This document shows positions 35,227 through 39,033 of a stretch of DNA of 64,000 bases, piece by piece. The position numbers and the translations under genes were made by a program. This DNA is from Rhodococcus sp. PAMC28707 (GTDB lineage: Bacteria > Actinomycetota > Actinomycetes > Mycobacteriales > Mycobacteriaceae). Below the pieces are notes generated by a model. It was given only the letters and a program-made list of their open reading frames with translations, made no database searches and had not been told where the DNA came from. Positions within the stretch are counted from its first letter, which is position 1; the number at the start of each line of letters is the position of its first letter. Location: NCBI RefSeq assembly GCF_004795915.1, contig NZ_CP039253.1, forward strand, positions 1,054,001 to 1,118,000, given 5' to 3'.

Positions 35227-35303
35227 TGGTGCCCCCAGTCGGACTCGAACCGACACTGTACGGATTTTAAGTCCGTTGCCTCTGCCAATTGGGCTATAGG
35301 GGC
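35227..35303 (-). tRNA. tRNA with anticodon TAA (Leu, UUA codon), short variable loop
   Basis: 77 nt including an encoded CCA. Acceptor stem gcccta-type (gccccta with tgggggc), anticodon stem acgga/tccgt with loop cttaaaa, T arm gtcgg/ccgac. The anticodon is TAA, which reads the leucine codon UUA. Unusually the variable region is only five bases (acagt), whereas leucine tRNAs are normally class II with a long variable arm. It lies 178 bases downstream of ppx on the same strand. Confidence 0.85.
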
Positions 35304-35481: not shown

Positions 35482-36426
35482 CTAGACCTTCACCGAGAGA
35501 GCAATCCCGTCGAGAATGTCGTGTTCACTGACGATCAGTGTGCTGACGGCTCCGCGTCGCTCGAATTCCTCGGCCAAGACGCTGCAGACGATGGAACCGC
35601 CGCCGATGACGTCGACCCGCCCTGGATGCATGGGGCCCAACTTGCTTCGTTCTGCACGCGTCATGTTGACCAGCCGGTCGCACACCTCGAACAGGTCCGC
35701 GAACGGCACCCGGGTCAGGTGCACCTTCTCGGCGTCGTATTCCGTGAGTCCGGAAGCTATGGCGGCAATGGTGGTCATGGTGCCCGCGACGCCGACCCAG
35801 CTCGTCGCGTTTCCGATCGACACTTCCTCGAAGGCTTCTTCCAGCTTTGCGCGCACATATTCACGGGCACTGGCGATCTCGTCTGCGGTGGGCGGATCAC
35901 TGTGCAGGAACCGTTCGGTCAGCCGGACACAGCCGATGTTCGCCGAGAACGCAGCCTTGACGCCTTTGTTGTCTCCGAGTACCAGCTCGGTGGAGCCGCC
36001 TCCGAGGTCGACGACCAGGAAAGGTGCACCGGCAGCGTTGAGTTCACCGACGGCTCCGGCAAAGGAGAGTCTGGCTTCCTCGTCACCGGTGATGACCTCG
36101 GCGACCGAGCCAGCGACGATCGGATCGAGTATTTCGCGCGTCATCGCGAAGAAATCCTCGCGGTTCGACGCGTCGCGTGTAGCAGAGGTGGCCACCATGC
36201 GTAGCGCCGACGCTCCGCTCTCACGGATGATTCCGGCATACTCCTGCAAAGCATCTCGGGTTCGCTCGATGGCTTCGGGCGCAAACGCACCCGTCGCGTC
36301 GACGCCTTGGCCGAGCCTCACGATGCGCATTTCACGGGCGACGTCGGTGAGGACACCGTCCTTGACGTCGGCGACGAGCAGCCGAATCGAGTTGGTTCCG
36401 CAATCGATGGCGGCAACTCTGGTCAT
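35482..36426 (-). CDS. ppx: Ppx/GppA exopolyphosphatase
   Basis: 314 residues of the ASKHA fold, hydrolysing polyphosphate or pppGpp. Motifs are AAIDCGTNSIRLLVAD (phosphate 1) and LVVDLGGGSTELVLGD (phosphate 2), with GGGSIVCSV near the end. Like mycobacterial Ppx2-type proteins it is short. ATG 36426 overlaps the DUF501 stop by four bases; the frame is open further but the upstream part is not family-like. Last gene of the ftsB-DUF501-ppx operon. Confidence 0.9.
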   Translation of the reverse strand: MTRVAAIDCGTNSIRLLVADVKDGVLTDVAREMRIVRLGQGVDATGAFAPEAIERTRDALQEYAGIIRESGASALRMVATSATRDASNREDFFAMTREILDPIVAGSVAEVITGDEEARLSFAGAVGELNAAGAPFLVVDLGGGSTELVLGDNKGVKAAFSANIGCVRLTERFLHSDPPTADEIASAREYVRAKLEEAFEEVSIGNATSWVGVAGTMTTIAAIASGLTEYDAEKVHLTRVPFADLFEVCDRLVNMTRAERSKLGPMHPGRVDVIGGGSIVCSVLAEEFERRGAVSTLIVSEHDILDGIALSVKV

Positions 36427-36962
36427 TGTGTCTCCCCGCGAAGTTCTGCGACGGTCGGCCAGTCCGCTGGAATGGCCTTGCCGCGCATATGGTTTTCGGC
36501 GGCGAGGGCAACTGCCTCGTCGCCGAGTGGATTGAAACCTGGGCCCTTGGCGAGCGAATGCGCGATGAGGACGTGCAGGCATTTCACTCGGTCCGGCATG
36601 CCTCCGCCGGTGAAGTCTGTTCCCAACGATTCGATTTCGTTGCGTTCGGCCAAGTAGGACTCGTGGGCCCGCCGATATCCGGCTGCCAACTCCGTATCGG
36701 TCCCCAGCCTTTCGGTCATCTCACGCATGACACCTGCAGATTCTTGCCTGCTCGCCTCCGCGGTGAGCCGCGGATCAGTCAGGTAATACAGGGTCGGGAA
36801 GGGCGTGCCGTCGGGAAGTTTGGGTGCAGTTTTCACCACACCGGGCCTGCCGTCCGGGGATCGGTAGGCGATCTCGAGAACCCCGCGAGGCTCACGCCCC
36901 AGCTGGGTCGCAACCGCCTCGAGATCCTCCGGCGAGACTGCCGATTCTCCTGCACCGGTCAC
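36423..36962 (-). CDS. DUF501 family protein
   Basis: 179 residues matching DUF501 (about 60-165; VEIAYR-type GVLEIAYRSPDG, LPDGTPFPTLYYLTDPRLT, GGGMPDRVKCLHVLIAHSLA). GTG 36962 with aaggagg upstream, overlapping the ftsB stop. Conserved with ftsB and ppx in actinobacteria; function not established. Confidence 0.85.
   Translation of the reverse strand: MTGAGESAVSPEDLEAVATQLGREPRGVLEIAYRSPDGRPGVVKTAPKLPDGTPFPTLYYLTDPRLTAEASRQESAGVMREMTERLGTDTELAAGYRRAHESYLAERNEIESLGTDFTGGGMPDRVKCLHVLIAHSLAKGPGFNPLGDEAVALAAENHMRGKAIPADWPTVAELRGETQ

Positions 36963-37668: not shown

Positions 37669-39033
<1,365 letters not shown>

Follow-up and report, generated by a model that had tools for sequence, protein, structure and literature searches.

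The tRNA-Leu(UAA) gene of the host genome lacks the long variable arm of class II tRNAs, and we assign a probability of roughly 0.92 to the reading that its product would be a functional tRNA still charged with leucine by the host LeuRS. As far as sequence comparison can tell, the molecule is an unusually built leucine tRNA rather than a recoded one, and its identity looks unchanged. The short UAA form is the norm in the family and common in the phylum, and the main interest of the case would lie in a repeated, phylum-wide change of tRNA class with the meaning unchanged.

The window, i.e., the whole analysed stretch of 64,000 nucleotides, corresponds to positions 1054001-1118000 of a single-contig genome of 4.73 Mb. 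A tRNA-Leu(taa) gene was called there by ARAGORN, and the tRNA family of Rfam (RF00005) matched positions 35230-35303 of the minus strand with 62.8 bits (gathering score 29, E 3e-11). The gene has the following features:

35227-35303, minus strand: tRNA-Leu(UAA) gene, 77 nt with encoded CCA, class I body (ARAGORN, Rfam RF00005)
35278-35294, minus strand: D arm, GCCCAATTGGCAGAGGC, with A14, A15, the mispaired C13:A22, and G18 G19 C20 A20a G21 (sequence and feature counts)
35267-35269, minus strand: leucine anticodon UAA in the loop CTTAAAA (sequence, ARAGORN, Rfam)
35255-35259, minus strand: variable loop ACAGT, five bases, the last being U48 (sequence, Rfam)
35230, minus strand: discriminator base A73 (sequence)

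Read 5' to 3', a 7-bp acceptor stem is followed by the D arm, the anticodon arm with a perfect 5-bp stem (ACGGA/TCCGT), the variable loop, the T arm, A73, and the CCA end encoded at 35227-35229. With a variable region of 5 nt, the tRNA falls outside class II (variable arm of at least 10 nt) and belongs to class I. The combination of a class I body with a leucine anticodon, which the earlier note had reported as running against the usual rule for leucine tRNAs, was confirmed by both gene calls, the CTTAAAA loop, the perfect stem, and the 5-nt ACAGT. With its positions numbered by hand, the D arm reads as a leucine-type core. Excerpts of PMC9976931 name A73, A15-U48, G18G19, and A20a as leucylation elements, and the list drawn up after that paper (A73, A14, A15-U48, G18G19, A20a) is found complete in the window tRNA. 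The same excerpts count the base number of the variable arm among the properties expected to be important in class II tRNAs, and the V-arm is called important for synthetase recognition in excerpts of PMC4033280.

An Rfam sweep of the host genome yielded 46 tRNAs, every one of which was read for its anticodon. Five of them are leucine tRNAs (CAG, GAG, TAG, TAA, and CAA). The CUN tRNAs have variable arms of 15 (CAG), 18 (GAG), and 13 nt (TAG) and belong to class II, and both UUR tRNAs (TAA and CAA) belong to class I, with a variable loop of 5 nt each. The combination of A14, A15, an unpaired 13:22, G18G19-N-A-G, U48, and A73 is carried by all five leucine tRNAs and by 0 of the 40 other rows, the comparison covering 45 of the 46 tRNAs, read as distinct strings (two of these are one initiator sequence at two lengths, and the 46th is the window tRNA-Gln(ttg)).

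The same elements recur in relatives. Among 97 distinct class I UUR sequences (93 UAA, 4 CAA), A14, A15, C13:A22, and N-A-G after G18G19 are each invariant (97/97), and U48 and A73 are each present in 94. All 10 class II UAA sequences counted have A73, A14, A15, U48, and an unpaired 13:22. Stem positions covary in the 92 of 93 distinct class I UAA sequences that could be parsed: the pair 29-41 is C-G in 58, G-C in 29, A-T in 3, and T-A in 2, and the pair 51-63 is G-C in 51, C-G in 40, and G-T in 1.

We propose that the host LeuRS would charge the short tRNA-Leu(UAA) without using a variable arm, by reading A73 together with the folded core common to the five leucine tRNAs (A14, A15-U48, G18G19, A20a/G21, and the open 13:22). 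Thirty genomes, drawn from both classes, were found to have one LeuRS gene each (E <= 1e-60; in G192 and G177 a second row stems from another piece of the one frame), and from this we infer that a single LeuRS must serve both the short and the long tRNAs of the host, one enzyme for two body plans. An enzyme with no need of the arm would leave UUR tRNAs free to lose it and to acquire it again. A comparison of LeuRS lengths and motifs revealed nothing that separates short-form from long-form genomes, and in a comparison with the PDB, LeuRS structures were matched by sequence only.

The distribution of the two forms was followed from the genus to the phylum. A class I tRNA-Leu(taa) was read in 23 of 24 genomes of the same genus; in the 24th (G024) the match lies at a contig end, where ARAGORN finds no tRNA. 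For the larger samples, the pattern search accepted short and long UAA tRNAs, and class was counted from the matched length (42-44 for short, at least 50 for long). A match was obtained for 118 of 121 genomes of the family (118/118 short), for 124 of 150 genomes of the order (103 short and 21 long, the latter in families f5, f10, f12, and f15), and for 112 of 246 genomes of the phylum sample (49 short and 63 long); the remaining 3, 26, and 134 genomes were unmatched in searches of a kind that misses variants. In none of the matched genomes of the three samples do a short and a long UAA form occur together. Exactly one UAA match was found in each of the 124 matched genomes of the order and in 116 of the 118 of the family; of the second matches in the other two (G449 and G477), the first has no tRNA by ARAGORN and the other looks degenerate by its letters. 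One genome of the phylum sample (G330) has two short matches. What the earlier note had offered as a possible rare isoacceptor is therefore the sole UAA tRNA among the Rfam hits of its genome and the usual form in its family.

For the CAA anticodon, 128 of the 150 genomes of the order were matched: a short form occurs in 113 and a long form in 17, two genomes having both; three further matches were set aside as un-tRNA-like (G065, G102, and G134). The two genomes in which class I and class II tRNA-Leu(CAA) stand together, by pattern match, belong to family f12 (G035 and G060). UAA and CAA change class independently. Of the 18 genomes of family f15, 15 have a long UAA and 3 have no UAA match; for CAA, the same 18 divide into 10 short, 2 long, and 6 unmatched. 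A short UAA is combined with a long CAA in both genomes of genus g19 and in two of the three of genus g20, and the remaining g20 genome has two short CAA matches.

The neighbourhood of the gene in the window includes two further features:

37669-38955, minus strand: eno, enolase (tblastn, neighbourhood scan)
35482-36582, minus strand: gene of a Ppx/GppA phosphatase, adjoining the tRNA gene (Pfam PF02541)

A Ppx/GppA gene was also found by tblastn near the tRNA gene in four of five other genomes checked, on the opposite strand in one of them (G423), and no match was found in the stretch from the fifth (G412). The enolase scan covered 80 named neighbourhoods, the best 80 of at least 586 relatives. 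Within these 80 stretches, tRNA-Leu(taa) lies at most 10 kb downstream of eno in 45 and was found in none of the other 35. Thirty-eight of the 45 genes are short, six are long, and one is intermediate. The short form occurs near eno in Corynebacterium, Nocardia, Nocardioides, Geodermatophilus, Klenkia, Nakamurella, Cutibacterium, Streptosporangium, a Bifidobacteriaceae MAG, and others, and the long form in Streptacidiphilus, Kitasatospora, and Streptomyces tateyamensis. The tRNA-Leu(taa) of Nocardioides sp. Root240 (L276:15613-15690), with a 9-nt variable region and a deviant D loop, stands between the classes, and the short one of Actinomadura craniellae (L251:17024-17098) has the loop CCTAAAA, i.e., C33 in place of the near-universal U33.

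A whole-genome search of 23 named genomes returned 12 short and 11 long forms. The short ones include four Mycobacterium/Mycolicibacterium genomes, Williamsia, Pseudonocardia, and others, one belonging to a record under the title Streptomyces sp. NP160, a doubtful name. The long ones are those of Actinoplanes, Catenulispora, one Streptomyces, and all eight non-actinobacterial genomes (8/8). Bacillus sp. MUM 116 has three long UAA copies and one chance match.

An RpoB tree was built from the 30 genomes also used for LeuRS (22 short, 8 long). On this tree, which is quick and unrooted and in which two long rows are flagged, the class of the UAA tRNA needs at least four changes, and the starred branches alone force four. 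Since the outside genomes are uniformly long, the long form is probably the older one, which the unrooted tree itself does not show. The widest formulation, to which we give even odds, would be that the long arm of UUR tRNAs in Actinomycetota is an optional module, whose exchange happened four times or more for UAA and separately for CAA, that one LeuRS charges both forms, that phage-borne short UAA genes may take part, and that the rule confining class I tRNALeu to animal mitochondria is false.

The two UAA forms differ in more than the arm, which measures 13-16 nt in the 10 class II UAA sequences and 5-6 nt in the short ones. The pair 12-23 is C-G and base 13 is C in 97/97 short sequences, versus G-C and G in 10/10 long UAA sequences, and further long UAA sequences likewise have G-C at 12-23 and G at 13. 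The class switch would thus be more than an arm deletion, and gene exchange becomes as plausible as loss of the arm in place. That short and long UAA genes were exchanged by gene replacement, with phage-borne short copies as one vehicle, is a possibility that we put somewhat below even odds. It would account for the change of pair 12-23 and base 13 along with the arm; four families (f23, f30, f32, and f61) hold both UAA forms in the phylum sample, and a candidate vehicle exists in Streptomyces phage Karimac (L315:601-675), whose 75-nt tRNA, annotated as Leu(taa), is of the short form, the named Streptomyces read being mostly class II. However, the short and the long gene alike are found downstream of eno, so that each replacement would have had to occur at the same place, and no donor was identified. 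Similar tRNA-Leu matches, known without their anticodons, are present in other Streptomyces phages.

Highly improbable is the other identity considered in the earlier note, in which a class I body would be charged by a different synthetase and this lineage would read UUA as another amino acid. A class I body with A73 does resemble many non-leucine tRNAs, and the acceptor stem GCCCCTA/TGGGGGC is identical in the tRNA-Leu(UAA) of the window and the host tRNA-Lys(UUU) (G000:C1:1365228-1365302). Against this stand the leucine core, complete in the window tRNA and shared by none of the non-leucine rows, and the behaviour of UUA codons in other short-form genomes. UUA-containing ORFs of 11 such genomes were aligned to homologues in other loci, and the consensus of each column was scored with residues coded by UUA or UUG ignored. 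The test genomes were four (G456, G412, G423, and G117) with a single UAA match each in the pattern searches and seven Corynebacterium loci with the short form in the same stretch, of which only L226, standing for genome G439, was swept genome-wide; L203-L206, which come from the same genome as L226, were left out.

At a consensus of at least 90%, the column is leucine for 29 of 32 UUA codons, compared with 138 of 145 for UUG, 335 of 348 for CUG, and 39 of 44 for CUA, the 32 strictest UUA columns coming from 7 of the 11 genomes of a mostly Corynebacterium set; in the host genome, UUA was too rare for the test. The proportions are 47/52 for UUA and 475/519 for CUG at a consensus of at least 70%, and 60/77 and 569/665 at a consensus of at least 50%. 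Against a reference set restricted to 21 class II or outside loci (17 confirmed as class II, L234 assigned by clade, and L286, L289, and L293 non-actinobacterial), leucine was found at 17 of 19 UUA and 180 of 204 CUG columns at the 90% level; at the 70% level it was found at only 26 of 34 UUA columns, CUG doing no better (218/285). Where ORFs overlapped, the best-scoring one was kept, and some minus-strand ORFs remain; one of the two codons at phenylalanine columns, and likewise one of the two at threonine columns, lies in minus-strand ORFs of L215, which are taken for antisense. In short-form genomes other than the host, UUA thus behaves in these alignments as a leucine codon, like CUN, which together with the retained core contradicts a changed charging identity.

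Recoding of UUA was rejected on this column-consensus test of 11 other short-form genomes. Two earlier codon tests did not enter the conclusion. The first, on LeuRS and RpoB with many antisense ORFs, left only two UUA codons to count among class I genomes, the one at a serine column lying in a misaligned start region, and gave leucine at 34 of 35 UUG codons at a consensus of at least 80%; the second, with antisense ORFs mixed in, gave six UUA codons (two Leu, two Arg, one Phe, and one Val) and was dropped.

Least probable of all is a minor or decaying extra copy beside a normal class II tRNA-Leu(UAA) elsewhere, for although UUA is rare in GC-rich genomes and selection on its tRNA might be weak, the 46 Rfam hits of the genome include no second UAA tRNA of the kind whose presence the earlier note had proposed to look for, the window tRNA has perfect stems with compensatory changes among relatives, and matched genomes of the order and nearly all those of the family have a single UAA match, so that a pseudogene or spare copy was rejected on the genome sweep and the covariation.

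Four known systems come closest to the short tRNA-Leu(UAA). The bacterial class II tRNA-Leu(UAA), such as bldA of Streptomyces, shares with it the UAA anticodon, A73, A14, A15, U48, and the unpaired 13:22, and in Kitasatospora and relatives it lies downstream of eno, as the short form does elsewhere; it differs in its long variable arm as well as in pair 12-23 and base 13. The tRNA-Leu(UUR) of animal mitochondria also has a short variable loop and, according to excerpts of PMC9976931, owes its leucine identity in humans to A73 and A14; however, it is organellar and served by a mitochondrial LeuRS, whereas here class II CUN tRNAs stand beside class I UUR tRNAs in a bacterial cell. The variable loop is likewise short in a bacterial tRNA-Leu(TAG) from a mycobacterial mobile cluster, as the authors themselves remark in excerpts of PMC6582537, but this tRNA is an extra copy in a horizontally acquired cluster beside a normal long form, and those excerpts make no mention of chromosomal UAA or CAA tRNAs as short. 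In the nematode nev-tRNAs (excerpts of PMC4033280) the variable-arm class also mismatches the anticodon, but there a long arm is combined with class I anticodons and decoded as leucine in tests, whereas here the amino acid looks unchanged.

According to excerpts of a 2023 review, animal mitochondria are the only place where tRNALeu lacks a long arm. A human tRNA-Leu(CAA) without a long arm, scoring as tRNA-Met, appears in excerpts of PMC8450103, and excerpts of PMC2474678 include some type I leucine tRNAs in a set of 571 tRNAs, with actinobacteria not named. The excerpts of PMC9569102, PMC4255298, PMC4932002, PMC7609411, PMC6297222, PMC4810241, PMC4033280, and PMC8450103 contain no mention of a short chromosomal bacterial tRNA-Leu(UUR), and no paper describing one was found in the literature searched, with subscription journals and tRNA databases lying outside it. 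The earlier note had named a known short form conserved in all relatives as grounds for refutation; the conservation holds in the matched family genomes, and no paper that would make it "known" turned up in the literature searched. Since the sequences themselves are publicly available, and at least those in phages bear the label tRNA-Leu, the new part may be the recognition of the pattern rather than the sequences.

A standard statement on tRNA structure and leucine identity fails in a large bacterial phylum. If charging is confirmed, a bacterial LeuRS would be shown in living cells to have no need of the arm, and class I and class II leucine tRNAs within one cell would allow the purpose of the arm (discrimination against SerRS and TyrRS, EF-Tu, the ribosome) to be tested; if the optional-module reading is true, the phylum would be a natural experiment on the reason for the arm of class II tRNAs. 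The case also bears on isotype-specific annotation models, on the design of orthogonal tRNAs, and on the control of UUA by bldA in Streptomyces versus its relatives. Phages of the Karimac type might bypass the bldA limitation of UUA codons, most Streptomyces read using the class II form.

Three of the 97 class I UUR sequences, the short tRNA-Leu(UAA) of L260, L270, and L272, have G73 in place of A73 beside relatives with A73, and their charging is uncertain. G73 as a trait of one group was rejected, since two Phycicoccus genomes (L316 and L317) carry A73.

Several copies of the 3' half of the tRNA, spread at intervals across some 85-180 kb, lie beside the intact gene in genomes of the same genus (G021:C1:2277464-2407556, G013:C54, G016:C1, and G006:C27), as left by integrative elements. 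One interval between such copies (L372) encodes a YobI-like ATPase, an OGG-like glycosylase, and an HNH protein; no integrase was found among the four proteins scanned, and by its predicted content the interval looks like a cargo or defence island. In two Mycobacterium abscessus prophage records (MW584199.1 and MW584176.1), positions 2-52 correspond to the 3' half of the tRNA with 94% identity, and each has a second such site; as these records start with the tRNA 3' half, mycobacterial phages, too, seem to use the tRNA-Leu(UAA) gene as an attachment site.
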